The notes under the pieces are model-generated. The model searched no databases, was not told the DNA's origin, and saw nothing but the letters and a program-made list of their open reading frames with translations. Shown here in pieces: positions 1,339 to 60,919 of a stretch of DNA of 64,000 bases. The number at the start of each line of letters is the position of its first letter. The first letter of the stretch is position 1. The stretch comes from Bacteroidaceae bacterium. Lineage in GTDB: Bacteria > Bacteroidota > Bacteroidia > Bacteroidales > Bacteroidaceae. Where the stretch lies: contig JAFRTJ010000004.1 of the NCBI GenBank assembly GCA_017427185.1, positions 1 through 64,000 of the forward strand, read 5' to 3'. The translations under genes and the position numbers were made by a program.

Positions 1339-1392
1339 CAACGTGTTAACTTTGCAAAGTCAACGTGTTGAGATCGCAAAGTCAACGTGTTG
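1339..1392. repeat. 22-bp-period decamer array 1 (3 units)
   Basis: Three decamers sit at 1339 (CAACGTGTTA, one mismatch), 1361 and 1383 (both CAACGTGTTG). The period is exactly 22 bp and the 12-bp spacers differ but end in gcaaagt. The array lies between the fusion esterase and the DUF6377 gene. It belongs to a family of seven such arrays in the window. Confidence 0.9.
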
Positions 1393-1473
1393 TCTTTCTT
1401 GTCCTCACCAGTAAGGTAACAGCAAGGTTAGCAATCAAACGCAGAAAAACTTGCTGAAACAAAAAAAAGACAG

Positions 1474-1481
1474 TATATTTG
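1474..1481 (+). promoter_or_regulatory. Bacteroidetes -7 promoter box, predicted leaderless
   Basis: TATATTTG fits the TAnnTTTG -7 consensus, with a TTG at 1451 at about the -33 position. Only 4 nt separate the box from the GTG start at 1486, so the transcript should begin at or next to the start codon. Confidence 0.6.
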
Positions 1482-1485
1482 CATT

Positions 1486-3150
1486 GTGAAACATCAATTT
1501 AAGACTTTTTTCACACTACTCGTTTGCCTGTTATATACCGTTAGCTGCCATCAGGCAGATAACGAGATACTATCGTACCGATTCAACGGGGTGAGCAACA
1601 AACAGCTTCAAAAACAGCTCGACTACCTGATTACCCACCGTGGCGTACAACAGCAGGAACGACTTGCGCGCGAAGAATATTTTAAGGTACGTATGCGAAA
1701 CAGTCCTTCGCTGCGCTTAAAGGGATTGTATGTCGATTCGCTTTACCATCTCTATATGCTGCACAACCCAGACTCTGCGCTTTACTACGAGGAAATGTGT
1801 CTAGACATAGCCCAGGAGTTGCACGATACGACATGGATAATATCATGTATGCTGGGGCAATATAAGACGTACTCTAACATTACCAGATTCTACGAAGCAG
1901 ACGACGTGCACCATGCTATCAACAAACTGCCGATAAACGATTCCCTCAATATATGTCGCTGCGTAGAGGCCTACCATCGTTCTTACCTTGAAGGTATCAT
2001 GTGCGCGGGATTGCCGCTGCAAGACTCTTTGTTCACAATAAGCCAAAAGCAATATTTGCGAGAGGCAGAAAAAATAATAAGGCCCCAGCATCCGTTATAT
2101 TACAGCACCTTGGCATTGAACGCACGATTTACTGATTATCAGCGGATTGACGAAGTTCAGAGGCACTTGGAAACAAGTCAAGGAGAGACTCACGAGGATG
2201 CCATAGAGTATCGCATGGCCGCTCTGTACTATCAGTCCCAGGCAAAGAAAGAAGAGGCTTTCCGATGCAATCTGATAAGTGCACTTATCGACACAAGGCT
2301 TGGCTGCTACTACCATGCAGGGGGAATCCTTGGACTCATAGAATATATGCGCGAGACAGGAGATATTCGCCACGCATATCTTTACTACGACTATGTTCAA
2401 GCTTGTGCCAACGAATACGGTAGTCCGAATTATCTCTACCAGCTCAACTACTCGTTCGATAACGTACGTGCCTCGTTTATGAATTACATAGAAAAAGCGC
2501 ACCATCGCACACGCATCTATTTAGGAATTAGTGTTTTATTCGCTTTAGCTATACTTTGGGTATGCTATGTTGTATACCGCCAAAGGGAGCACCTACGCCA
2601 TATTCGTTGGGAACTTCTTAGGAAAAATGAGGAATTGGAGAGCTTATTAGAGAAACTGCGCGAGAGAAACGTTGACCTGCAGGAGTCCAACACGGCCAAG
2701 GAGGAATACATCGCTCTGGCATTCGGCATCTGTAGCGACTACATCGACAAGCAGGAGAAGTTCCGGTCTACCATAAACAATCGCATCGTAACGAAAAAGT
2801 TTGCCGAAGCTCGTGAGATGTTGGATACCACCACGCTGGCAAAAGACGAATTACGAAACTTCTTTCGTCGTTTCGATGAGGTTTTCCTGCTCATATATCC
2901 AAATTTCATCAACCAGCTGAATGACTTACTGCGCCCTGAAGGTCGCATCGTCCCACCGAAATCTAAGCTGATGAATACTGAACTGCGCATTTGTGCCCTC
3001 ATTCGATTGGGTATTAAGGACAGCAAGCGTATAGCTGAATTTTTGCATTGCTCGCCACAAACTGTCTACAATAACCGACAACACATCCGATCCTCAGCAG
3101 CTCTTCCTGCACAGGAATTCATGCGGGCTTTCGAGAATTTGGGACGCTAA
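1486..3150 (+). CDS. DUF6377-type membrane-anchored HTH regulator
   Basis: This 554-aa protein has an N-terminal hydrophobic signal ending in a lipobox-like LYTVSC (about residues 16-21). A TPR-like helical region covers roughly residues 30-340, and one membrane helix lies near 344-365. A coiled-coil stretch follows (about 370-405), then a C-terminal DNA-binding part with a helix-turn-helix around KDSKRIAEFLHCSPQTVYN. This layout is typical of DUF6377 regulators in Bacteroidales, which are usually coupled to polysaccharide or surface-protein loci. The GTG start is chosen because it precedes the signal sequence. Two broken copies of its 3' end occur at 9787 and 17866, upstream of the GLUG gene and its relic. 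It probably senses in the periplasm and regulates the adjacent fasciclin gene; that target is inferred. Confidence 0.8.
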   Translation: MKHQFKTFFTLLVCLLYTVSCHQADNEILSYRFNGVSNKQLQKQLDYLITHRGVQQQERLAREEYFKVRMRNSPSLRLKGLYVDSLYHLYMLHNPDSALYYEEMCLDIAQELHDTTWIISCMLGQYKTYSNITRFYEADDVHHAINKLPINDSLNICRCVEAYHRSYLEGIMCAGLPLQDSLFTISQKQYLREAEKIIRPQHPLYYSTLALNARFTDYQRIDEVQRHLETSQGETHEDAIEYRMAALYYQSQAKKEEAFRCNLISALIDTRLGCYYHAGGILGLIEYMRETGDIRHAYLYYDYVQACANEYGSPNYLYQLNYSFDNVRASFMNYIEKAHHRTRIYLGISVLFALAILWVCYVVYRQREHLRHIRWELLRKNEELESLLEKLRERNVDLQESNTAKEEYIALAFGICSDYIDKQEKFRSTINNRIVTKKFAEAREMLDTTTLAKDELRNFFRRFDEVFLLIYPNFINQLNDLLRPEGRIVPPKSKLMNTELRICALIRLGIKDSKRIAEFLHCSPQTVYNNRQHIRSSAALPAQEFMRAFENLGR

Positions 3151-3330
3151 AGGAGGGGATATCTATAGTTTAGAAAGCCATAGAAAAGAAGATAAGATTT
3201 ACCGATTTTATCGAAACAAACAAACACAAAGAACTGATTCCTTGCATTTTAGCTTTTAAAATGATTTACGGATTTTCAAAAACTCTTGCATCGGTCGTGA
3301 AAAGTGTCGACCTTTGTAAGCGAAAACATG
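3085..3330 (+). repeat. Segmental repeat copy A: DUF6377 3' end plus downstream leader
   Basis: The last ~20 codons of the DUF6377 gene and ~180 bp of the following non-coding leader recur, clearly recognisable, at about 9787-10010 and 17866-18170. Shared landmarks include the tail encoding FENLGR-stop, a gattt(a)c(c/t)gattt stretch and the atgatttacggattttcaaaa(g)ctcttg segment. The leader ends upstream of the next gene in every case, so it probably carries a promoter or regulator target. Confidence 0.8.
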
Positions 3331-3373
3331 ATGTGAAAACATTCTAAAACATCAAAGCATTTGTGAACTTGTT

Positions 3374-5491
3374 ATGAAGAAGAGCATTATATGTTTGATG
3401 ACTGCTTTATTGATAGCAGCTTGTACGGAAGAAGTGGATACGTCTGCCCGCTATGTATTCCACGAAGATACCGCTATCGATTATATGAACAAGCTTCCTG
3501 ACTCCTACAGTACATACGTAGACCTACTCTTTAAGGTACCAGTAAGCAAAATCAGTCATACGACCGTGGGGCAGCTACTTACAGCTCGCGGTCATTATAC
3601 CGTCTTCGCACCTACTAACGAGGCTATTCAGCAATATCTCGATACACTTGCTGCCACACAAGAGTTTCTTACGGCTCCTTCCTGGGATGCATTTACCGAT
3701 AGCGTAAAGCTGGATAGTATACGCAAGGTAATCGTGCAGAACAGTATTATCGACAGCGGTGATTTAGGTATGCCTTACGAGGTGTCAGATTTCCCCATCA
3801 TTAACGGGGCCGAGCTGACAGACCCGACTCTAAACGACCATCGCATTTCGATATATTACAGCGACGAGAATGCTGACAGCTTGTGGGTGAATAAAGATTG
3901 TCCGATAAGTGTGAAGAACCGCGATATCAGGGTAATGAATGGCATGATTCATCAAATGGAGAAGGTAATCGCTCCGAAAGACATTACTGCAGATATCTAT
4001 ATTCAGGATGTTATCGACCGTCAAACGGAAGGTTTTCTGGTAATGGCAAGGGCAATCCAAGCCTGCGGTCTCATGGATACTCTCCGTACATTCCGCGATG
4101 ACGAATATGAACTGAAGTACCAACAAGGTCTGATTGGGGATCTCGATTGCAACTCAGCAGGAATGGGTAACTTTATCGCCTTTTCGCCTGAGCATCGTAA
4201 AGTGGGTTTCACGATTTTTGCAGAGACAGATGATTTCTGGCGCGAACAGGGGTTGAATCCTACCTCTCCCGACCTTCTTCAGGAATTGCAGCAATGGATT
4301 GAGAGTCAACATCTATATTCCGATTCCGATGCGTTTACGACAGACGACAATTATACGAATGAGCATAACCTGCTGAACCAATGGATTACTTACCATATCT
4401 TACCCATGCGTCTTGTATCAGACAAATTAGTAATCCATCATTCGGAAATAGGCTATAATATAAGGTTAAAAGGGGTTCTTGGGAATCCCGTGACCGAGTA
4501 TTATCCCTGCTATGGAAAACGTCGTCTGCTTAAACTTTACGAAAGCAAAAAAAGCGATGGAGTCCGGCTCAATCGTTTCGCGAAGTTCGATAATGGCAGA
4601 CGAGGAAATGGTGACGAGATAGACTGCGAACCCGACAAGGAAGGCATCCGCATTAACCGCGACAGTCCGATGGCAGAAATCAGCGGAATCGTGAATGCTT
4701 GCATTTATCCTATAAATGAGCCTCTTGCGTATACCGATGAGGTACGCGACAACTTAAAAAAGGAACGTATACGTTTTGACTTTATGGCCTGTTTTCCAGA
4801 GGCTATGACAAACGACATCCGAAAGAAAGACCTGTCTCACTCCAACGTGGATAATAGTCAGTTCGCTTATATACCTCCACGTTCCGTTTATCCATATTTC
4901 GAGAATCTTTGGTTGAGCGACCAAAGTAATTTCCGCTATACAAACTTCTATGGAGTTGGCGGTTGCCCACATCTATATGGCGATGAAGTCCTCTGTACGG
5001 GACGTTACGAGGTTACCTTGAAATTGCACCCTGTCCCACGCTCGGGCATCTATGAGTTGCGCTTCGGATATTGGGCTGATGGGGGACGAGGCATTGCACA
5101 AGTCTATTTTGGTGATAATGTGGATCACATGGCACCCACTGGCATTCCCATTAATTTTGCTATTGATGGTAACAATCGTATCTCAGGATGGGAGGAAGAT
5201 ACGGAAGATGACGAATATAATGCGGAAATAGATAAACGTATGCGTCACAATGGCTTTATGAAAGAGGGTAAAAGTATATGTCCTTTAGGAGATGTATCGC
5301 AGTCTGGACGTTATGATACCCATACTCTACGTCGAATACTTGTCCGCCAATATATTGATGCTGAAAAAGACTATTATCTTCGCATTAAGTCTGTCCTCGA
5401 TACAGAAACAAAGTGTTTTATGTTTGACTTCTTTGAATTTTGCCCTAAAGAAGTTTATGACAATCCCAATGAGCCTGAAGATATCTGGTAG
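3374..5491 (+). CDS. Fasciclin (FAS1) domain lipoprotein
   Basis: This 705-aa protein starts with a lipoprotein signal (LIAAC lipobox, Cys near residue 16). Residues ~30-195 form a FAS1 domain: the pattern TVGQLLTARGHYTVFAPTNE is characteristic, and the domain closes with NGMIHQMEKVIAP. A second FAS1-like region follows at about 205-385. The C-terminal ~300 residues look like a beta-rich ligand-binding or adhesion module that I do not recognise. Such proteins are common in Bacteroidales polysaccharide loci as surface adhesion or binding lipoproteins. It follows the DUF6377 regulator by 223 bp and that leader is the duplicated segment, which suggests a regulator-target pair. No enzymatic motif is visible. 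Confidence 0.8.
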   Translation: MKKSIICLMTALLIAACTEEVDTSARYVFHEDTAIDYMNKLPDSYSTYVDLLFKVPVSKISHTTVGQLLTARGHYTVFAPTNEAIQQYLDTLAATQEFLTAPSWDAFTDSVKLDSIRKVIVQNSIIDSGDLGMPYEVSDFPIINGAELTDPTLNDHRISIYYSDENADSLWVNKDCPISVKNRDIRVMNGMIHQMEKVIAPKDITADIYIQDVIDRQTEGFLVMARAIQACGLMDTLRTFRDDEYELKYQQGLIGDLDCNSAGMGNFIAFSPEHRKVGFTIFAETDDFWREQGLNPTSPDLLQELQQWIESQHLYSDSDAFTTDDNYTNEHNLLNQWITYHILPMRLVSDKLVIHHSEIGYNIRLKGVLGNPVTEYYPCYGKRRLLKLYESKKSDGVRLNRFAKFDNGRRGNGDEIDCEPDKEGIRINRDSPMAEISGIVNACIYPINEPLAYTDEVRDNLKKERIRFDFMACFPEAMTNDIRKKDLSHSNVDNSQFAYIPPRSVYPYFENLWLSDQSNFRYTNFYGVGGCPHLYGDEVLCTGRYEVTLKLHPVPRSGIYELRFGYWADGGRGIAQVYFGDNVDHMAPTGIPINFAIDGNNRISGWEEDTEDDEYNAEIDKRMRHNGFMKEGKSICPLGDVSQSGRYDTHTLRRILVRQYIDAEKDYYLRIKSVLDTETKCFMFDFFEFCPKEVYDNPNEPEDIW

Positions 5492-5546
5492 TCTATTGTG
5501 ATTTGGCTTTGATAATCAAGAATATATCCCTAAAAACAAATACAAG

Positions 5547-5639
5547 ATGGTTAGACCAACTCTTTTTCTCCTTTTTGTGGTCTGGTCGATAATACTGCAA
5601 GCTCAGACCAGAAACCCTTATCCTAAGCTGCGAGGGTGA
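5547..5639 (+). other. Orphaned signal-peptide start of the beta-helix gene (frameshift)
   Basis: An ATG at 5547 opens a good signal peptide (MVRPTLFLLFVVWS..., cleavage near LQAQ) that runs into a TGA at 5637. The next frame continues as ...LSCEGDHEIVLAAS into the downstream beta-helix protein. Removing one base in the CCC run near 5615-5617 joins the two. This is either a real inactivating or phase-variable frameshift or a sequencing error. Confidence 0.7.
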
Positions 5640-5649
5640 CCACGAGATA

Positions 5650-6864
5650 GTGTTGGCAGCAAGCAACAGTAGTGACGGAGACAAGGCTGCAGCCGACTAC
5701 GTGTGCACGGGACACAACGATGAACGGACAATTCAAAAAGCTATTGATGAGCTAGGCGGCTACGGTGAATTGCGACTGCTGAGCGGAGTTTATCGCATAG
5801 ACTCGTTTACCCCTACCGAGGACGGCACTCCGGCCTACGCTATAGGACTGAGCGGACAGGGAAAGAGTCACAACGGAAAGGATTTTCCTGTGCGTATTAT
5901 GATAAGAGGTGTAGACTCCAGCTTCTTTGGATTTTCTACGGAACCGAAGAATGACAACTTCAACGGGGTTACTCTTGCTGTAAGTCAGGAATGTTACGAC
6001 TCATTAAACGAGAAGGCGGAATACTCGGTAATACGTTGCCTGACGTACCGCGACGTACACTTGGACTTCGAGGGAATAGCGATGAATCTGCCTGATAATC
6101 AGAAAGCTATCTGTTGTTTCGACGGTTCCAGATTCGAGTCCATCCGTATGAAGGACTGCTACTTTCAGGCAAGCAACAAGAACGAGTACAATAAAGATGC
6201 CGTTCCTCACATGGGTGTTCTGGGGTGCGTAGGAGTTAGGGGAGTTCAAGGCGCGAACAACAGTTTCAAGTTTGATCTCTTTCAAGTGGCTTGTTTGAGT
6301 TTCGGAGTAGGCTTCCAGGTAGGTGGCGAGCATTATTATGGTTGTTATCTAAGCAGTGTGTTCTGCACTTACGGCTTTACGTTCAACAGTTACCCAATGA
6401 CGAGCGGCGTATGGGTTCACCCAATTACTCTGGTGAACTGCTGCGACGAGGCTCCAGGGAACTATCCCTTCTTCGGCGACAATCCAGGGCACCAGCCAAT
6501 AGACATCATCAACTTCAACATGGAGCACTATTGCAACTACTTTGAGGCTGGCGGAGCTCATTATGCCGAAGAGAAGGTGCCAGGGCAGTGGACAGGTACC
6601 TTCGACTACAGCATCATGAGCCGCGGAGAAGACGGCTACGTGCTGACAAACAGCCCCAAGAAGAAATTTTGGGCAGCAGGACACGGCTTGAACCTCCGCA
6701 CGAAAGACAATACGCAGAAACAAATCTGCTCCAGCGAAGAACGTCGGACCTACGAACCGAACTTCTTACAGGTAATATACGATACTACACTGCAGAAACT
6801 CCTTATCTGCATAGACCCCGTCAACAAAAAATGGCAGGTAGTAGAAGGAGACGTGATAGAGTAG
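5650..6864 (+). CDS. Right-handed beta-helix (pectate-lyase-like) protein, 5' frameshifted
   Basis: As it stands the frame uses a GTG start at 5650 and encodes 404 aa without a signal peptide; the true start is probably the ATG at 5547 in another frame. The opening YVCTGHNDERTIQKAIDELG is the standard entry of pectin-lyase-fold proteins, followed by a GVYRI strand. Regularly spaced hydrophobic and asparagine-rich turns support a single-domain right-handed beta helix. I cannot assign a lyase or hydrolase family, and no clear catalytic set is seen. It sits 79 bp upstream of the GH78 rhamnosidase on the same strand, so a pectin or rhamnogalacturonan role is plausible. If the frameshift is real, the protein would not be exported. 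Confidence 0.65.
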   Translation: MLAASNSSDGDKAAADYVCTGHNDERTIQKAIDELGGYGELRLLSGVYRIDSFTPTEDGTPAYAIGLSGQGKSHNGKDFPVRIMIRGVDSSFFGFSTEPKNDNFNGVTLAVSQECYDSLNEKAEYSVIRCLTYRDVHLDFEGIAMNLPDNQKAICCFDGSRFESIRMKDCYFQASNKNEYNKDAVPHMGVLGCVGVRGVQGANNSFKFDLFQVACLSFGVGFQVGGEHYYGCYLSSVFCTYGFTFNSYPMTSGVWVHPITLVNCCDEAPGNYPFFGDNPGHQPIDIINFNMEHYCNYFEAGGAHYAEEKVPGQWTGTFDYSIMSRGEDGYVLTNSPKKKFWAAGHGLNLRTKDNTQKQICSSEERRTYEPNFLQVIYDTTLQKLLICIDPVNKKWQVVEGDVIE

Positions 6865-6943
6865 CCTTCCCAAGAGGAGGGGAGAAGAAATACTTCTGTT
6901 ATGAAGCCATGGATAGCTTTATAAACAATAACCCCACAAAATA

Positions 6944-9628
6944 ATGAAAACCACATTTCTGACGATCTGTACGTTCTTTTCCTTCGCCTTACTGGCGCAG
7001 CAAACAATAACGAGCGAGAATCTGCGTGTCTATGATCTACAGACGGACTACGAGACGAATCCTCTCGGAATGGACAACGTTCGACCCACTTTCAGCTGGA
7101 AGATCGAGGCTCAGGAGAAAGGCGTACGTCAAGTGGCTTACCGCCTGCTCGTTGCAAGCTCAGAGGAACTATTGGAGAAGAACGAAGGGGATGTTTGGGA
7201 CTCGGGAGTAAAAGAATCACGAGAGAGCACAGGCATCACCTTCGAAGGAGTAGAACTGAAAAGCTTTGCCCGCTACTACTGGAAAGTAAAGGTAACGACA
7301 AATCAACGAGTAGACACAAAATGGTCGGAAACGGCCTTTTTTGAGATGGGCCCAATAAGACAGGGGGATTGGCTGGCTGGATGGATTAACTATACTGGCG
7401 GGCTGCCTGGAAGAGTGCTTTACTACAAGACGACTATCGAACCTGGACAAAAGGTAAAGATGGGACGCATCTATGTATCCGGACTGGGTTACAGCGAGTT
7501 GGAGATAAACCATCAGAAAGTAGGCGACCACGTATTAGATCCAGCTCAAAGTTCATACAGCAAACGCTGCTATTACGTTTCTTACGATGTGACGGAAATG
7601 CTGAAACCTGAAGCGAACACTGTAGTAATAACGACAGCTCCAGGATGGATGGGGATGTGCAAGCTCAGATTTCTGATGAGGGTACAACTCGAGGACGGAA
7701 ACTGGATCATCTACACTTCCGACAACATCCGGACACTTTGCGGAGAAAGAACTCTCTATAGTACCGTTTTCGACGGAGAGACTTATGATGCCCGAAACGA
7801 GAACAAGGAACTCTACGAGCCCTACAAACCACCCTTGCTGATGAATAAACAATGGGCTTTAGCCTGCAATGCGGATGAACCTACAGGAGTAATGACCTCT
7901 CAGCGAGTAGATCCTATTCGTGTAGTGGATTCCCTCAGCCCGACAACTCTGACGGCTCTGCCCAACGGAGACTACATAGTAGACGCTGGGCGGAACTTAG
8001 CTGGGTGGATGCGGATACGCGTAAAAGGCAAGGAGGGGCAGAAGATAACGATGCGCTATGCAGAAACCCTCCACGAGGACGGATCCATAAATCAGGACAA
8101 TCTGAGAAACGCCAAGGCAGAGGACATCTTCATTCTGAGCGGAAAGGGCATAGAGGAATGGGAACCTCGCTTTACCTACCACGGATTCCGCTACGTCCAA
8201 ATAAGCGGACTGACTTCTGCTCCAGCAGAGAGTGACCTCCAGGTACGTGTTGTTCGCTCTTCTGTTCCACAGACAGGAAGTTTCCATTGCTCTAACCAAC
8301 TGCTTAACGATATCCACCAGATGGTAGTGAACACCGAGTCTTCAAACCTGCACAGCGTTCCTACGGACTGTCCGCAAAGAGACGAACGTATGGGGTGGCT
8401 GAACGACCTCACTGTACGTATCGAACAGGCTATGTATAACTTCGATATGTCGCGCTTCTACCCTAAGTTCCTGCAGGACATTACCGATACGCAGGGCGAA
8501 GACGGAACGATTACCTGCGTAGCTCCCTTCCGTTTCGGAGCACGACCCGCTGACCCCGTTTGTGCCAGCTACCTGCTACTGGCCAATAAGTGCTATGAAT
8601 TCTACGGCAACAAAAACCTGATCCTTCAACACTTCTCCCATCTGAAAGCCTGGACAGACTACCTGCACAGCAGAACCAGGGACGGCATCGTAGATTACAG
8701 TTACTATGGAGACTGGTGCCCACCCAGGGAGTTCCTTGCAAGTCCGCTGTCAGGTGTGTCGCGCGATACACCTGGCCAACTCATTTCTACAGCTTATCTG
8801 TACCACTGTGAACGTGTTCTTGCTCAGATGGCTGGTGTGATAGGTCGTATGGAGGAAGTAGCTCGATACACGAAATTGGCTGAGGAGACGAGGGATGCCT
8901 TCAACCGCGCATACTGGAATGAGGAGAAGGGCGGATACGGTTCTAATAATCAGGCTTGCAACAGTATAGCGCTTTACATGGGGATGGCGAACGAGGAACA
9001 GGCTGGACGTGCAATAAAGAACCTCGTAGCTGATGTGGAAGCTCACGATTTCCATCTGACAACTGGCAACCTATGTACAAAGTATCTTTTGGAAGTGCTG
9101 AGTGACAGAGGATACCCAGAGGTAGCTTACCGTATTGCCACCCAGACGACTTATCCTAGTTGGGGATTCATGTTAAGCAAGGGAGCTACCACGCTATGGG
9201 AAAGGTGGGAATACCTGACGGGTGACGAGATGAATTCCCACAATCACCCTATGATGGGGTCTGTAGGTTCCTGGTTCTACAAGTACGTAGCAGGCATACG
9301 GAGCGATTTCAATCATCCTGCATTCAGTCAGTTCATCCTGCAACCTTATCCCTTCACCGAACTGGATAGTGCAGAAGGTGAACTGAAGACAGTAAAGGGC
9401 ACCATTCGCAGCTCTTGGAGGAAACAGAACGGGAAATTCATCCTTGCTATAGATATCCCTACCAATACGCAGGCTCTCGTTCACATTCCTACAAGTTCCG
9501 CAAAGAGCGTACGGGAAAGTGGTCGCAGTCTGAAAGGAAACGGACAGATTCATCTACAGGAAAGTAGCCCTACAGAAGTCATCTGCCTCGTTGGTTCTGG
9601 TCACTACGTATTTGAGTCGAAACTATGA
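6944..9628 (+). CDS. Alpha-L-rhamnosidase, GH78
   Basis: This 894-aa protein has a signal peptide (MKTTFLTICTFFSFALLAQ) and the GH78 layout. An N-terminal beta-sandwich opens with ENLRVYDL and contains NPLGMDNVRPTFSWK (about residues 24-120). A second sandwich follows near 130-330, and an (alpha/alpha)6 barrel begins near 440. The catalytic region has the hallmark DCPQRDERMGWLND, whose acidic residues carry out inverting hydrolysis. The barrel ends with the typical ATTLWERWEY and SHNHPMMGSVGSWFY motifs. It should remove terminal alpha-L-rhamnose from pectic side chains or glycosides in the periplasm or at the surface. The length is usual for the family. It stands between the beta-helix gene and repeat array 2. 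Confidence 0.93.
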   Translation: MKTTFLTICTFFSFALLAQQTITSENLRVYDLQTDYETNPLGMDNVRPTFSWKIEAQEKGVRQVAYRLLVASSEELLEKNEGDVWDSGVKESRESTGITFEGVELKSFARYYWKVKVTTNQRVDTKWSETAFFEMGPIRQGDWLAGWINYTGGLPGRVLYYKTTIEPGQKVKMGRIYVSGLGYSELEINHQKVGDHVLDPAQSSYSKRCYYVSYDVTEMLKPEANTVVITTAPGWMGMCKLRFLMRVQLEDGNWIIYTSDNIRTLCGERTLYSTVFDGETYDARNENKELYEPYKPPLLMNKQWALACNADEPTGVMTSQRVDPIRVVDSLSPTTLTALPNGDYIVDAGRNLAGWMRIRVKGKEGQKITMRYAETLHEDGSINQDNLRNAKAEDIFILSGKGIEEWEPRFTYHGFRYVQISGLTSAPAESDLQVRVVRSSVPQTGSFHCSNQLLNDIHQMVVNTESSNLHSVPTDCPQRDERMGWLNDLTVRIEQAMYNFDMSRFYPKFLQDITDTQGEDGTITCVAPFRFGARPADPVCASYLLLANKCYEFYGNKNLILQHFSHLKAWTDYLHSRTRDGIVDYSYYGDWCPPREFLASPLSGVSRDTPGQLISTAYLYHCERVLAQMAGVIGRMEEVARYTKLAEETRDAFNRAYWNEEKGGYGSNNQACNSIALYMGMANEEQAGRAIKNLVADVEAHDFHLTTGNLCTKYLLEVLSDRGYPEVAYRIATQTTYPSWGFMLSKGATTLWERWEYLTGDEMNSHNHPMMGSVGSWFYKYVAGIRSDFNHPAFSQFILQPYPFTELDSAEGELKTVKGTIRSSWRKQNGKFILAIDIPTNTQALVHIPTSSAKSVRESGRSLKGNGQIHLQESSPTEVICLVGSGHYVFESKL

Positions 9629-9679
9629 TCGGCTCTGCAGTCCCCTGTTGTACCGCAAAAAGTTGCAAAGCTACACCAT

Positions 9680-9694
9680 CCCCCCCCCCCCCCC
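9680..9694. repeat. Poly-C homopolymer tract (15 C)
   Basis: A run of 15 C residues lies about 52 bp after the GH78 stop codon and 39 bp before decamer array 2. It is not in a reading frame, so slippage would not alter a protein directly, but the tract is unusual for this sequence. Confidence 0.85.
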
Positions 9695-9732
9695 GTTTTC
9701 ATGCTGTTGTGGATACGTTATAAGGCCCATTT

Positions 9733-9786
9733 CAACGTGTTAATTTCCCCATTTCAACGTGTTGAGTCGGCAAAGTCAACGTGTTG
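9733..9786. repeat. 22-bp-period decamer array 2 (3 units, perhaps a decayed fourth)
   Basis: Units lie at 9733 (CAACGTGTTA, one mismatch), 9755 and 9777 (both CAACGTGTTG), exactly 22 bp apart. A decayed candidate, ggatacgtta, sits in register at 9711. The array ends at 9786 and homology to the 3' end of the DUF6377 gene starts within two or three bases, so it lies at a rearrangement breakpoint. Confidence 0.9.
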
Positions 9787-10010
9787 CGGCTCTTCCTGCA
9801 AAGGAATTCGTGCAGACTTTCGAGGATTTGGGACGTTAAAGCAGAGACTACCTATAGTTAGGAAAGCCAAAGCGAAGGGGATTATATTTACTGATTTTGT
9901 CGGAACAACTAAATGTAAATAGCTGATTCATTGTATTTTAGCCTTTATAATGATTTACTGATCTTCAAAAGCTCTTGTACAGATCAAAAAAAGTCCCAAA
10001 CTTTGCACTG
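9787..10010 (+). pseudogene. DUF6377 3'-end remnant plus leader (segmental repeat copy B)
   Basis: Bases 9787-9839 encode a tail homologous to the last ~17 residues of the DUF6377 regulator (ALPAKEFVQTFEDLGR, then TAA). About 170 bp of the same non-coding leader found after the intact gene follows. The remainder of the gene is missing. The leader carries an AAACTTTG box at 9998-10005 that could serve as the -7 element for the GLUG gene. Confidence 0.8.
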
Positions 10011-10053
10011 CAAAACATAGCAAAAACGACATTCAAAACACTAACATTAATAA

Positions 10054-13000
10054 ATGCTTATGAAAAAAACATTACTTTCCATGCTGACAGCAGCCACAAT
10101 CTGGCTGTGCAGCACAACGGGTTGGTCACAGACCACCATAGAGATTGGGACCGCAGAGGAATATGCTGCCTTTGCGGCCAGAGTAAACGAAGGTGAACGA
10201 AGCCTAAGCGCTGTTCTCACCGCCGACATCGACCTGACGGCCTATCAGGGAGAGGACTTCCCCATGCTGGGCGCAAACGATGGTGACAACATCGATCACG
10301 AATATCATGGCACGCTGGACGGAGCCGGCCACAAAGTAATTTACAATTTCACTGGCTGGCGTCACTGGACAGGACTGATCGGAGCCTTGGGTACCAACGG
10401 TGTGGTAAAGAATCTGGAGCTGTACGGATCACAAACCACCGAATGGTTGTGCATAGGTACCTTAGTTGGTTATTTGAACGGAGGTACTATCTCGCATTGT
10501 TTCAGCCATGTTACGTTGAATCTTACCGCTACAGGACTTTGCAACTGCGCTGGTCTGGTAGGTAGCGTAGGCTGGGGAGGACTGATTGAATACAGCGGCT
10601 GGGATGGAAACATTGTAAGTGAAACCGCAACGGATTGTGCTGGACTGGTAGGATGGGCTGGCTACGGCGTTACAATCAACAACTGCCTCTGTGCTGGAAC
10701 TATACCAGAAGGAGGAAATGCCTGTACAATCTCACGTAACATGGATGCAGCAGCCATCACCAATTGCTACTTCTTGAACGAGTATCAGGATACGAGAAAC
10801 GGAAGCATACAGATTACGGAAGAAGATCTGGCAAGCGGCCGTGCTTGTTGGTTGCTTAACGGAGGAGGTCTGACAGGGACCGGTTGGTTCCAAACATTGA
10901 ACGAAGACAAGATGCCCACGCCGAACAGCACACATAATATTATTTATAGCACGGACGGCGGCGTTACTTTCTGCGAACTATCATCCGACGTGAACAGCTT
11001 TCAGCAATTCATAGGTACCGTAAAGGACGAAGCCGATGAATTCCTGAGCGACGAGAACATAGATTATGGTAACACAGACGCTTATCAAGAAGCACTGGCT
11101 GCACTGGCTGCCAGTACGGCCAAGGAAGAAATGATTGCGAACTACGAAACCGTAGTTCATGAGCGAAACAAACTTGAAGCAAATGCTCTTCTGAAGATCT
11201 CCTCTGCCGAAGAATACGTCAACTATGCTGCTCAAATAAAGGCTGGAACAACAAACATGTCAGCCAAGCTTGTAACAGATATTGACTTGACAGAATACAA
11301 CGATAATTTCCCATTCTTAGGTACAACCGAGGTTCCCTTCACGAAAACATTCGACGGAGATGGGCATACTATCATAGTAAACTTCAGCAGCGCCGACCAT
11401 TATGCTGGTTTGTCGCAAGCGCTGAGTGGCATCTTCCGCAACATCGTTTTGGAAGGAAACATTTCCTGCGGTGGCCTGTGCAACGGTTCGTTCGTAGGCA
11501 ACTTGATGGGTGGAACCGTTCAGAACTGTGTAAGCCACGCTACGCTGTACATGAGTGTTGCTGGTCTGTGTGCATCAGGTGGCATTGTCGGAGCTACTTC
11601 AGGAAATAACAGTAGCCTGGTGGAGAACTGTCTGTTCGATGGACAGATGGAATCCGGTTCAGCTACCAACAACGGAGGTATCATAGGTTGGCCAGCGGCT
11701 TCAGAAACAACGGCACGGAACTGTATCTTTGCTGGTACACTGCCTGAAGAGGGAGCTTATACCATATCGGTAATCAATGCCCCTGTATCTTGTCAAAACT
11801 GCTACTACCTAAATGTCTATCAAGGCATTAACGCTGGCAGTTCACAGGTTTCAGAGGAACAGCTTAAAAGCGGAGAGCTTTGCTACATGCTAAACGGCAA
11901 CAAAGTAGGACAGAATTGGTTCCAGACTTTGGACGAAGATAAGACACCTCTGCCCTACAGTACACATGGAATCGTTTACAAGGCTGGCGAGGAGTATTAC
12001 AATCTGACAGAAGAAGAGAACTCTATACAACAATATTGCGAGCTACAACTGGAAGAAGCCGACACATATTTGAGCAAACACCTGTTCCAAACCTCATTGA
12101 AGGAACCTTACCTGCAGGCATTAGAGGCTTTGAAGCAGAATTCTACCATCAAGGACCTACTGGCCGCTATCGAAACGACAAATCAGATGCTCGATGAGAT
12201 AGTGAATTCTGTAGCTGCATACGAACATTATCAGGGAAAGATTGATGAAATAAAGACCTTCATCGAGGAGAACGGAAATACATTCGAAATGACGCCCTTC
12301 CTGCGGCGCTATTTAGAGGAGAGCATAGAGCCCTGTGAGCAATATACCTGTGGTTCTTACCTCTTCATTATAGAAAACTGCCTGCTCAACAACGAGGAAC
12401 TGGCTGCTGAGGAAGTCCGTGCACAGCAACTGTTGGATGATGCCGTGAACGGTGGTTATGGCCCAGGAGCCGACGTGACCACATTGCTGCTAAACGCCTC
12501 GTTCGCTCAGGACGACAAAGCCAGCGGATGGGAGTCTGACGGCGGTTTCAATGGCTACGTTGTAGATGCAGGAGGTGTAATGCGTGTTTTGGCCATGAAT
12601 AGTTGCCCAATGAATATTCACCAAACCATCAAAGACGTTAAGAACGGGTTCTATATCTACCAGATAAGCGGCTACACAGAAGTGGATGCCATGGATCCTG
12701 AAGCTGTATACAACTATACGGGCCTTGTCTACGCCAACGACAACAAGAACTATATGCAGACTCAGCGCAGTGGCCTCGTTCCCATAGAAGCAGGAGAAAA
12801 ATACGGCAACGACGTAGAGATGGTATACAACGGCGACTGGGAGGAAACTGGCTATGCTCCCTATACTTATACTGGTATGGGATATGTCTTTGCCGATGGG
12901 TATTATACGAACAGTATTCTGGTTAACGTAACCGATGGAACCCTTACAGTAGGAACAAACAATGAAGGTGTGAATGACCGCTTATGCATGACCTATATGG

Positions 13001-14430
13001 GCAATGTAAAACTGACCTACCTAGGCAATCTGGAAGAGGCCGCCGATCAGATAGATGCCTTACTGAATGACATGATAAAGAAAGCAAACCACCTGCTGAA
13101 CGATTATCTGGTATTGTTCGAAAACATGGATGCGCCGAACTACAGTACAAATCTGAAGGATGAACTGAAAGCGTGCATTACAAGTAACAATCTGAGTACT
13201 ACGGAACAGAAATACGAAGCAATCGTACGTTTGGGTAAACTCTTTGCCGATATCATTGCAAGTAAGCAGGCTTACACTCAATTGATTACCTTCAACGACA
13301 AATTGCTTGACCTATATTATAATTATCTGCCAGAAGACATGAGGAACGGATACGACGAGACGTACTATCAGGTGTTGGACATCTACAACGAGGGGGCATT
13401 GACAACCGATGAAGTAATAGCCAAGATAGAGGAATTGAAGCAGGACGAGAATTATCAGAAGTTCATCGTAGAGTACCCAATCGGAACCGCTGAAGAGTTT
13501 GTGGAATTCAGCAATCTCCTGAAGCAGGGGGCTCTAATCAATTATGCTGTATTGAAAGCTGACATCGACCTGACGGCTTATCAAGGAGAGGACTTCCCCT
13601 TCATAGGTACTACCGCTGTTCCATACGCAGGCACGCTAAATGGTAACGGGCATACGATAAAAGTGAACTTCACTAGCAATGAACATTATGCAGGTCTTTC
13701 CCAAGCTCTGCAGGGAACTTTCCAAAATATAATAATGGAAGGAACCATTACGGCTGGAGGTCTATGCAATGGTTCGTTTGTAGGCCATCTGCAAGCTGGT
13801 AAGATACTGAACTGCGTAAGCCACGTGAACATGATTCTGACCGTAGAAGGACTTTGCGCCTCTGGCGGAATTGTAGGAGCCAGCAACAATTGCTTGGTAG
13901 AAAACTGTCTGTTCGACGGAAAGCTAATTTCTGAGACTGCCACCAACAATGCTGGTATCGCTGGTTGGCCTTGTGGAGGAGAAGTGGTACGCAACTGCCT
14001 CTTCACTGGAACAATACCCAAGGGAGATGACTGGAACATTGTCTACGGAGCCAATGGAGCTGTCTATACTTGTGTAAACTGTTATTATTTGAATGCATAC
14101 GCGAGCAACAATGCAGACTGTACCCAAGTAACAGAAGAACAGCTGAGAAGCGGTGAAGTATGCTGGTTGCTGAATAACGGACACACCGATGAATTGGCAG
14201 GCTGGGGCCAATTGCTGGGTACCGATGAGACTCCCCTTCCCGATGCTACACGCGGAATCGTAGGCAAACAGAGCGACGGCACATATTGTAATGTGACAGA
14301 CGCTATCCAGGAGATTGCGAGCCAACCCAACGTTCTGTCGAAGGGTATCTACAACATACTGGGACAGAAAGTACAAAAGGTTCAGAAGGGCCTCTATATC
14401 ATCGACGGCAAAAAGGTGATGGTAAAGTAG
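10054..14430 (+). CDS. Large GLUG-type repeat secreted protein with C-terminal sorting-like domain
   Basis: This 1458-aa protein has a signal peptide (start either ATG 10054 or, better placed, ATG 10060 giving MKKTLLSMLTAATIW, cleaved near WSQ). Three long homologous modules lie at about residues 28-310, 385-650 and 1140-1420. Each starts with a (GTA/SA)EEY.xFA signature and a DIDLTAYQGEDFP-like strand, followed by GxGHTI and GLUG-like turns (CxxCxGLVG, NNxGIxGWP). Between modules 2 and 3 are helical linkers and a beta domain. The C-terminus (ILGQKVQKVQKGLYIIDGKK) resembles type IX secretion/por sorting domains common in Prevotella. It is probably a surface adhesin or carbohydrate-binding protein. 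A truncated paralogue lies at 18197. Confidence 0.75.
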   Translation: MLMKKTLLSMLTAATIWLCSTTGWSQTTIEIGTAEEYAAFAARVNEGERSLSAVLTADIDLTAYQGEDFPMLGANDGDNIDHEYHGTLDGAGHKVIYNFTGWRHWTGLIGALGTNGVVKNLELYGSQTTEWLCIGTLVGYLNGGTISHCFSHVTLNLTATGLCNCAGLVGSVGWGGLIEYSGWDGNIVSETATDCAGLVGWAGYGVTINNCLCAGTIPEGGNACTISRNMDAAAITNCYFLNEYQDTRNGSIQITEEDLASGRACWLLNGGGLTGTGWFQTLNEDKMPTPNSTHNIIYSTDGGVTFCELSSDVNSFQQFIGTVKDEADEFLSDENIDYGNTDAYQEALAALAASTAKEEMIANYETVVHERNKLEANALLKISSAEEYVNYAAQIKAGTTNMSAKLVTDIDLTEYNDNFPFLGTTEVPFTKTFDGDGHTIIVNFSSADHYAGLSQALSGIFRNIVLEGNISCGGLCNGSFVGNLMGGTVQNCVSHATLYMSVAGLCASGGIVGATSGNNSSLVENCLFDGQMESGSATNNGGIIGWPAASETTARNCIFAGTLPEEGAYTISVINAPVSCQNCYYLNVYQGINAGSSQVSEEQLKSGELCYMLNGNKVGQNWFQTLDEDKTPLPYSTHGIVYKAGEEYYNLTEEENSIQQYCELQLEEADTYLSKHLFQTSLKEPYLQALEALKQNSTIKDLLAAIETTNQMLDEIVNSVAAYEHYQGKIDEIKTFIEENGNTFEMTPFLRRYLEESIEPCEQYTCGSYLFIIENCLLNNEELAAEEVRAQQLLDDAVNGGYGPGADVTTLLLNASFAQDDKASGWESDGGFNGYVVDAGGVMRVLAMNSCPMNIHQTIKDVKNGFYIYQISGYTEVDAMDPEAVYNYTGLVYANDNKNYMQTQRSGLVPIEAGEKYGNDVEMVYNGDWEETGYAPYTYTGMGYVFADGYYTNSILVNVTDGTLTVGTNNEGVNDRLCMTYMGNVKLTYLGNLEEAADQIDALLNDMIKKANHLLNDYLVLFENMDAPNYSTNLKDELKACITSNNLSTTEQKYEAIVRLGKLFADIIASKQAYTQLITFNDKLLDLYYNYLPEDMRNGYDETYYQVLDIYNEGALTTDEVIAKIEELKQDENYQKFIVEYPIGTAEEFVEFSNLLKQGALINYAVLKADIDLTAYQGEDFPFIGTTAVPYAGTLNGNGHTIKVNFTSNEHYAGLSQALQGTFQNIIMEGTITAGGLCNGSFVGHLQAGKILNCVSHVNMILTVEGLCASGGIVGASNNCLVENCLFDGKLISETATNNAGIAGWPCGGEVVRNCLFTGTIPKGDDWNIVYGANGAVYTCVNCYYLNAYASNNADCTQVTEEQLRSGEVCWLLNNGHTDELAGWGQLLGTDETPLPDATRGIVGKQSDGTYCNVTDAIQEIASQPNVLSKGIYNILGQKVQKVQKGLYIIDGKKVMVK

Positions 14431-14458
14431 GATTCTTGGGTTAATAAATGAAGAGAGA

Positions 14459-14497
14459 GAAATGCTGCTTTCCTCGAAAGGGTGGAGGCGGCATTTC
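14459..14497. terminator. Hairpin terminator after the GLUG gene
   Basis: An inverted repeat pairs gaaatgctgc with the complementary ggcggcatttc around a gaaa-containing centre, 28 bp after the GLUG stop codon. The 3' arm runs into tctttaaat. Confidence 0.6.
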
Positions 14498-14523
14498 TTT
14501 AAATCCTGAAAAATAAGGAAAAA

Positions 14524-17778: not shown

Positions 17779-17865
17779 AACCTGCTATACAACACAAACT
17801 CTTTTTCCCCCTTCCTGGCATCCCTCTTCGCCATCTCCCTTTAGGCTGCCAACTCAGCGAGGGAC

Positions 17866-18170
17866 GTATAGCTGAATTCTTGCATTGTTCTCCACAAACC
17901 GTCTGCAATAACCGACAACACATCCGATCCTCAGCAGCTCCTTCTACACAGGAATTCATGCGGGCTTTCGAGAATTTGGGACGTTAAAGCATGGACTACC
18001 TTTAATTAAGAAAGCTAGATAATAGAGAATTAGATTTACCGATTTTGTCGAAAGTAATAAACGCAAATATCTGATTCTTTGCTTTTTAGCTTTTATAATG
18101 ATTTACGGATTTTCAAAAGCTCTTGCACAAGTCGAAAAAAGTCCCAAACTTTGCACTCGCAAAACATCGC
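17866..18170 (+). pseudogene. DUF6377 3'-end remnant plus leader (segmental repeat copy C)
   Basis: Bases 17866-17987 encode the last ~40 residues of a DUF6377 protein (IAEFLHCSPQTVCNNRQHI... ending FENLGR-stop), including the HTH helix, but no start. The same leader as copies A and B follows, with an AAACTTTG box at 18146-18153 upstream of the GLUG relic. It is longer and closer to the intact gene than copy B. Confidence 0.85.
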
Positions 18171-18196
18171 AAAAAAAATAAAACGACAAAACATTA

Positions 18197-18517
18197 ATGA
18201 ACATGAGAAAAACATTACTTTCCACGCTGACTGCAGCCATACTTTGGTTGTGCAGCACAACGGGATGGTCACAGACCACCTTAGAGATTGCGACAGCAGA
18301 AGAATATGCTGAATTTGCGGCAAGAGTAAACGAAGGTGAGCGAAGCCTATGCGCTGTTCTCACTGCCGACATTGACCTGACGGCCTATCAGGGTGAGGAC
18401 TTCCCCATGTTGGGAGCAAATGATGGTGACAACATCGATCACGCATACCATGGTACTCTGGACGGAGCTGGACACAAAGTAACTTATAATTTCACTGGCT
18501 GGCGTCACTGGAAATAA
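18197..18517 (+). pseudogene. Truncated GLUG-protein relic (internal deletion)
   Basis: This 106-codon frame closely matches the first ~106 residues of the large GLUG protein: same signal peptide and the same DIDLTAYQGEDFPMLGANDG segment. It then stops abruptly. At the stop the DNA jumps from the gtcactgga stretch (equivalent to 10361-10369) to ggaaataacagtagc (equivalent to 11602-11616). About 1.24 kb is thus deleted across a 3-base GGA microhomology. The short secreted product is unlikely to be functional. Confidence 0.85.
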
Positions 18518-41405: not shown

Positions 41406-41481
41406 CAACACGTTGAGACCCACAAGTCAACACGTTGAGACCCACAAGTCATCACGTTGAAATCGCAAACACAACACGTTG
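41406..41481. repeat. 22-bp-period decamer array 4 (4 units)
   Basis: Units lie at 41406, 41428 and 41472 (CAACACGTTG) and 41450 (CATCACGTTG, one mismatch), exactly 22 bp apart. Two of the three spacers are identical (agacccacaagt). It lies between cbiB and the B12 riboswitch promoter, and a run of T8 follows the last unit. Confidence 0.92.
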
Positions 41482-41523
41482 ATTTTTTTTAACCTTAAAT
41501 TTGGCGGAAACAAGAATATTGAA

Positions 41524-41531
41524 TACCTTTG
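41524..41531 (+). promoter_or_regulatory. -7 box of the B12 uptake operon
   Basis: TACCTTTG lies just before the riboswitch, so the transcript starts at about 41537 with the aptamer at its 5' end. Confidence 0.65.
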
Positions 41532-41534
41532 CAG

Positions 41535-41690
41535 TCAGAATAGCGGAAATGGGAATCTGGTGTGAATCCAGAACTGTCCCGCAGCTGTAAGTTCCGTTGA
41601 ATCCGTGATGGGAAGAAAGCCACTGGAGCAACATTCTGGGAAGGCATCATCAGTCAGGAGGAACAAGTCAGAAAACCTACCGCCAATTCT
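41535..41690 (+). promoter_or_regulatory. Cobalamin (AdoCbl) riboswitch
   Basis: Conserved blocks of the B12 aptamer appear in order: gggaatctggtg with gaatccagaactg, the core cccgcagctgtaa, gttccg, the gccactgg block with ctgggaaggc, and the B12-box-like agtcaggagg...acctaccgcc at 41650-41684. It precedes the B12 uptake operon by ~70 bp, the standard place for repression of transport genes when cobalamin is plentiful. Confidence 0.9.
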
Positions 41691-41758
41691 ATGTTATAAC
41701 CATTTAACTAATGCGCGAGGACGTGTTTGTATAACTAATTAAAATAAATGTAAAGAAA

Positions 41759-60843: not shown

Positions 60844-60919
60844 CAACACGTTGTCTTTGCGGTTTCAACGTGTTGTCTTTGCGGTTTCAACGTGTTGTCT
60901 TTGCGGTTTCAACACGTTG
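60844..60919. repeat. 22-bp-period decamer array 7 (4 exact units, inverted pairs)
   Basis: Units lie at 60844 (CAACACGTTG), 60866 and 60888 (CAACGTGTTG) and 60910 (CAACACGTTG), exactly 22 bp apart. All three spacers are the same (tctttgcggttt). Units 1-2 and 3-4 are perfect reverse complements, so each pair could form a 10-bp stem with a 12-nt loop. Confidence 0.95.

Follow-up and report, generated by a model that had tools for sequence, protein, structure and literature searches.

A decamer array adjoining a DUF6377 gene remnant in a Bacteroidaceae genome is probably a boundary element and not the driver of a deletion

The DNA analysed here (the window) is a stretch of 64,000 nucleotides, positions 1 to 64,000 of contig JAFRTJ010000004.1, from a Bacteroidaceae bacterium (assembly GCA_017427185.1), whose genome is called G000 below. 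In its first 20 kb, an alpha-L-rhamnosidase gene is followed by a short array of decamers, the last codons of a DUF6377 gene and a gene encoding 1458 aa, and an intact DUF6377 gene lies upstream. The features that matter to the argument are listed by window coordinate and strand.

1339 to 1392, forward strand: array 1, 93 bp 5' of the intact DUF6377 gene, bounding on the left a block that a second genome, G044, also has
1486 to 3150, forward strand: intact DUF6377 gene (copy A), GTG start at 1486, PF19904 (E=5.8e-66); its protein has a signal-like N-terminal segment, a probable membrane segment and a putative HTH-like C-terminal segment
6944 to 9628, forward strand: alpha-L-rhamnosidase gene, 5' of array 2, PF17389 (E=5.3e-103)
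9733 to 9786, forward strand: array 2, three decamers at a 22-bp period, 104 bp 3' of the rhamnosidase stop
9786 to 9839, forward strand: copy B, the final 17 codons and stop of a DUF6377 gene, touching the last decamer
9840 to 10053, forward strand: leader/promoter region of the 1458-aa gene, with conserved counterparts at copies A, C and D
10054 to 14430, forward strand: 1458-aa gene, 3' of the remnant (the 'GLUG' gene of the preliminary description)
about 17859 to 17987, forward strand: copy C, a third DUF6377 tail, starting from codon 513, without an array
18203 to 18517, forward strand: shortened duplicate of the first part of the gene at 10054 (about 100 aa), 3' of copy C
41406 to 41481, reverse strand: array at one end of an indel of about 4.4 kb relative to G044, its outer edge being the indel end
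60844 to 60919, no strand assigned: array missing from the colinear intergene of G044 and of a third genome, G122

Array 2 consists of CAACGTGTTA (9733-9742) and two copies of CAACGTGTTG (9755-9764 and 9777-9786). The preliminary description had the array ending at 9786 and running into about 17 DUF6377 codons, and this is what we find: from 9786, the final base of the last decamer, the sequence is 80.5% identical over 113 bp to 3097-3209, which is the end of the intact DUF6377 gene with its 3' flank, and it comprises 17 codons and a stop. Translated from 9786, copy B reads AALPAKEFVQTFEDLGR and then the stop, and the intact gene ends in AALPAQEFMRAFENLGR and then its stop. The array occupies the place expected for DUF6377 codons 513-536. 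The spacing of array 1, which had been put at about 95 bp upstream of the full gene, was likewise accurate, with 93 bp between the last base of the array, 1392, and the GTG at 1486. Furthermore, the identical array-remnant junction is present, base for base, on contig C37 of G044 (L031, RGIG8159, from water-buffalo rumen), a second genome of the genus, and the fusion is therefore neither strain-specific nor an assembly slip. Within the G000 sample, exact repeats between array 2 and the other arrays reach 18 bp at most, a length at which a misjoin would not come easily; with the junction common to both genomes, this places the junction before the G000/G044 split or makes it the product of exchange between them. 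Between the rhamnosidase stop and array 2 there is also a run of 15 C (9680-9694), and G044 is about 90 bp longer in this region.

Copy A scores 223 bits against PF19904, whose gathering cut-off is 36.7, and is the only full-length gene in G000 matched by the DUF6377 protein. The remnants B and C align to the DUF6377 C-terminus and are both too short for Pfam scoring; copy C keeps 41-42 DUF6377 codons and copy B keeps 17. Contig C25 carries a fourth leader copy at 2143-2349 (copy D), joined there to the tail end of a different truncated reading frame. The preliminary description mentioned neither the tail at 17.9 kb (C) nor the leader copy on contig C25 (D), and both stand without an array, so that arrays are missing at two of the three truncated DUF6377 copies. 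The leader of copy B (87% identical to that of G044) corresponds to 3151-3373 at copy A and to 17985-18202 at copy C, and it is conserved at 77-82% ahead of different genes. Because the leader has been kept before different genes, selection probably acts on the promoter or leader rather than on the remnant peptide. Similarly, since a gene of one kind stands behind both B and C, and more codons remain in C, copy B would have lost more DUF6377 sequence after the two diverged. The 1458-aa gene belongs to no Pfam family at E<=0.001 and has a close relative in G044 only, the others among the matches listed having about 37% identity or less. Literature searches on DUF6377 and on the decamer returned nothing relevant.

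It had been proposed that array 2 once preceded a full DUF6377 gene and that the DNA between the array and the end of the gene was then lost. The loss of sequence stands, given the longer tail of copy C. The former order of array and gene is not supported: the arrangement of array, full DUF6377 gene and 1458-aa gene, which a comparison of orthologous loci was expected to reveal, occurs in 0 of the 139 genomes searched, and array 2 is barely closest to array 1. We considered whether array 2 arose from array 1 when DUF6377 was duplicated and rejected this, as array 1 is the best match among about 70 arrays by one base only (45/54 vs 44/54). An array-free version of the rhamnosidase-remnant junction was not found among relatives either, G044 being the sole other genome with the locus and having the array. 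As neither a full-length nor an array-free version of the copy B locus was found, the order of events there stays inferred.

The decamers belong to a large family. With up to one mismatch, the decamer occurs 33 times in the window, against 3.8 occurrences expected from shuffled sequence, and adjacent decamer pairs at the same tolerance number 271 (152+119) in the G000 genome. The unit consensus is CAACGTGTTG followed by a 12-bp spacer; the core is 10 bp with 4-bp arms (CAAC..GTTG), and the spacer is variable and non-palindromic. Exact decamer pairs are confined to three of the 139 genomes of the genus (G000, G044 and G122). A common 8-bp core at 22-bp spacing occurs in 15 of 301 genomes of the family, and arrays with the 22-bp period and other cores are present in the relatives G091, G128, G026, G049, G167 and G226. 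In a 622-kb sample of G000 (41 array calls, 38 distinct arrays), the gaps that hold arrays are convergent in 18 cases, tandem in 19 and divergent in 2, compared with a baseline of 42 convergent, 147 tandem and 52 divergent for all gaps of at least 40 bp. Most arrays thus follow a stop codon or separate convergent genes, and array 2, at 104 bp past a stop, is in an ordinary position. Where orthologous arrays can be compared, the decamers persist, and it is the spacers and the number of units that differ. Of 70 arrays, 30 have 25 or more identical bases in common with another array; for array 1 and array 2, the longest exact matches to other arrays of the G000 sample are 19 and 18 bp.

Whole arrays are also gained or lost, and one can appear between colinear flanks with hardly any DNA lost next to it. 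The array at 60844-60919 is missing from otherwise colinear DNA in G044 and G122, and a small array of three units in G000 (C77:62241-62273), about 67 bp between matching flanks, is cleanly absent in G044. The latter lies in the short leader of a putative phosphofructokinase gene and forms a filled/empty site pair. No clear target-site duplication was seen at filled/empty array sites, and a reading of the arrays as mobile-element insertions was rejected on this ground. Aligned array pairs and the filled/empty sites examined, which do not amount to a systematic search, have no flank in common.

Three arrays of the window (those at 1339, 9733 and 41406) lie exactly at junctions. Array 1 marks the left edge of DNA shared with G044 at 96.8% identity over 1339-9668 and at 92.7% over 9692-14523, compared with about 80-86% for most aligned DNA. 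Relative to L031, this 13-kb block (1339-14523) is a mosaic of stretches that are 100% identical and stretches that are 83-92% identical, a pattern that suggests repeated recent exchange. The left flanks of array 1 differ between G000 and G044; the aligned arrays agree over two decamers and one spacer and then diverge, which places the junction inside the array. Gene X, the neighbour of array 1 in G044, was considered as the original owner of the array and rejected, its orthologue in G000 and G122 being without a detected array. At 41406, the indel corresponds to two more genes in G044, across the array from 41482-41720. By its appearance, this last stretch, to the right of the array, is a candidate cobalamin riboswitch leader. 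The check named in the preliminary description, whether other arrays coincide with breakpoints, comes out positive for array 1 and the array at 41406 as G000/G044 boundaries, but not as a general excess once gaps are matched.

That comparison covered 1.30 Mb of G000 and 0.90 Mb of G044, one species pair with incomplete genomes, in which gene calls were approximate (longest open frame) and the two directions of comparison were not independent. Without matching, breaks fell in 16 of 27 array gaps and in 34 of 95 others (122 scorable gaps; p=0.025). Long gaps and convergent gaps break more often, however, and these are the gaps in which arrays occur. When labels were shuffled within strata of gap length and orientation, the apparent enrichment of synteny breaks at arrays vanished and was rejected: 16 array gaps were broken against 15.85 expected (p=0.57; 27 array junctions, limited power), and in the reciprocal comparison 12 were broken against 10.1 expected (p=0.21; 19 array junctions, limited power). 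Of 28 broken gaps, 4 had homology ending at or within the array, compared with 22% for pseudo-arrays placed in array-free gaps. Enrichment over matched sites, which would define a recombination hotspot, was thus not found at the limited power of these tests. The broader claim of the preliminary description, that the arrays may mark or promote recombination, fails against this result; arrays not enriched at rearrangement junctions, the outcome it had named beforehand as contradicting it, is what the matched test gave, again with limited power.

The explanation that we favour, with rather better than even confidence, is that the array is a boundary element sometimes found at junctions and not the driver of the deletion, and that copy B is the relic of a regulator cassette. 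The DUF6377 gene and the promoter/leader of its neighbour would have been duplicated several times as a regulator-target cassette. In the extra copies the regulator would then have been lost, with the end of its reading frame and the promoter behind it retained, the promoter by selection. At copy B, the left neighbour would have been the rhamnosidase gene with a decamer array at its 3' end, and the join would have fallen at the array edge, the array itself deriving from the rhamnosidase side. More generally, arrays sit mostly at gene 3' ends, where joins are tolerated, and their units are gained, lost and exchanged over time, as suits a boundary element. Four points count against this explanation, namely the exact fit to the array edge (bases within 3 bp outside an array edge make up about 0.4% of the bases in 3'-end gaps), the location of three window arrays at junctions, the limited power of the tests and the higher break rates before matching.

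An unlikely but not negligible alternative is that arrays promote recombination, either through short homologies or as protein-bound break sites where deletions or transferred blocks start or end. This process would have yielded three products, namely the loss at copy B, the indel at 41406 and the left border of the 13-kb block. In its favour, a junction falls within array 1 between two genomes whose identity is elsewhere about 80-86%, and an indel of about 4.4 kb ends exactly at an array; the lack of a detected array beside gene X in G000 or G122 implies that array 1 came with the island, and the sharing of at least 25 bases by 30 of 70 arrays and the higher unmatched break rates point the same way. 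However, the matched tests were negative, two of the three truncated DUF6377 copies have no array, and exact matches of arrays 1 and 2 to other arrays in the G000 sample are no longer than 19 and 18 bases. An identity of 18-19 bp is short for RecA-type exchange, and homologous recombination between arrays at the copy B locus was rejected for stretches of this length.

Somewhat less probable still is that the deletion came first and that a new array was then seeded, by arrival or by growth, where the rhamnosidase gene already met the DUF6377 tail. The gain and loss of arrays at otherwise colinear sites, and the tail remnants C and D without arrays, would accord with such a history, but no relative was found with the junction and without the array, and G044 carries both. 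An assembly artefact caused by repeats, which the hundreds of arrays per genome and the many contigs might bring to mind, is very improbable at array 2 given the same junction in a second genome record and a longest exact repeat of 18 bp within the G000 sample, and a small chance of a misjoin is left at array 1, where the left flanks of the two genomes differ.

On the favoured explanation, in which the array marks a boundary, the copy B locus is an ordinary gene remnant and the array is probably a passive feature of a boundary that tolerates rearrangements. The matched test cautions against reading much into repeats found at a junction, since these repeats occur in places that tolerate junctions anyway. 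The family of arrays stands out more, with hundreds of arrays per genome, a fixed 22-bp step, a location mostly at gene 3' ends and other cores in related genera. A period of 22 bp puts the units on approximately the same side of the helix, which suggests that a protein binds the arrays. A more ambitious and doubtful proposal is that the 22-bp arrays are lineage-specific, helix-phased binding arrays for such a protein that mark gene ends and serve as preferred seams for array-to-array exchange or loss of whole gene blocks in rumen Bacteroidaceae.

Short repeats with comparable habits are known from other bacteria. In enterobacteria and pseudomonads, REP/BIME elements comprise hundreds of short palindromic intergenic units in arrays, mainly at gene 3' ends and in convergent gaps. 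Like these, the decamer arrays are high in copy number, intergenic, preferentially at gene 3' ends and rare between divergent genes. Unlike them, they repeat a 10-bp core strictly every 22 bp, with spacers that vary, whereas REP units are 34-36 bp and form hairpins; a hairpin palindrome of 20-40 nt with the REP signature is not seen in the decamer arrays. REPs flanking the O157-antigen cluster of E. coli coincide with possible recombination points, with the cause only speculated upon (PMC3158064). The NIME/dRS3 repeats are a second parallel, being hundreds of short dispersed repeats between genes, and in Neisseria, NIME elements were the most frequent elements at the borders of rearranged blocks (PMC9778887). 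That study counted elements up to 700 bp from a border, and the parts of it consulted here contain no matched control (PMC9778887). In NIME, dRS3 is a 20-bp inverted repeat flanking RS units of 50-150 bp; no RS-like units were seen here, and the decamers are not 20-bp ATTCCC-N8-GGGAAT repeats flanking such units. Within the Bacteroidales, the BrickBuilt minisatellite-MITE of Porphyromonas gingivalis is intergenic, with a 23-nt unit and strain-variable copy number (PMC4596501), and its unit length is near-identical to the 22-bp period. However, BrickBuilt has 19 copies, units without spacers, and leader and tail segments with terminal inverted repeats, while the decamer arrays occupy hundreds of sites, combine a conserved core with a variable spacer rather than a 23-nt spacer-free tandem unit, and have no leader or tail that we could see. 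By analogy, then, the arrays resemble REP/BIME or NIME in location and in their presence at some junctions, and in sequence they match none of these systems.

As a separate observation, 22 bp recurs as a tandem-repeat period across many Bacteroidaceae genomes with quite different unit sequences (G026, G049, G091, G099, G167, G226 and G128), and several of these units are palindromic around CACGTG, for example TTGTCTCACACGTGAGACAACG in G026.
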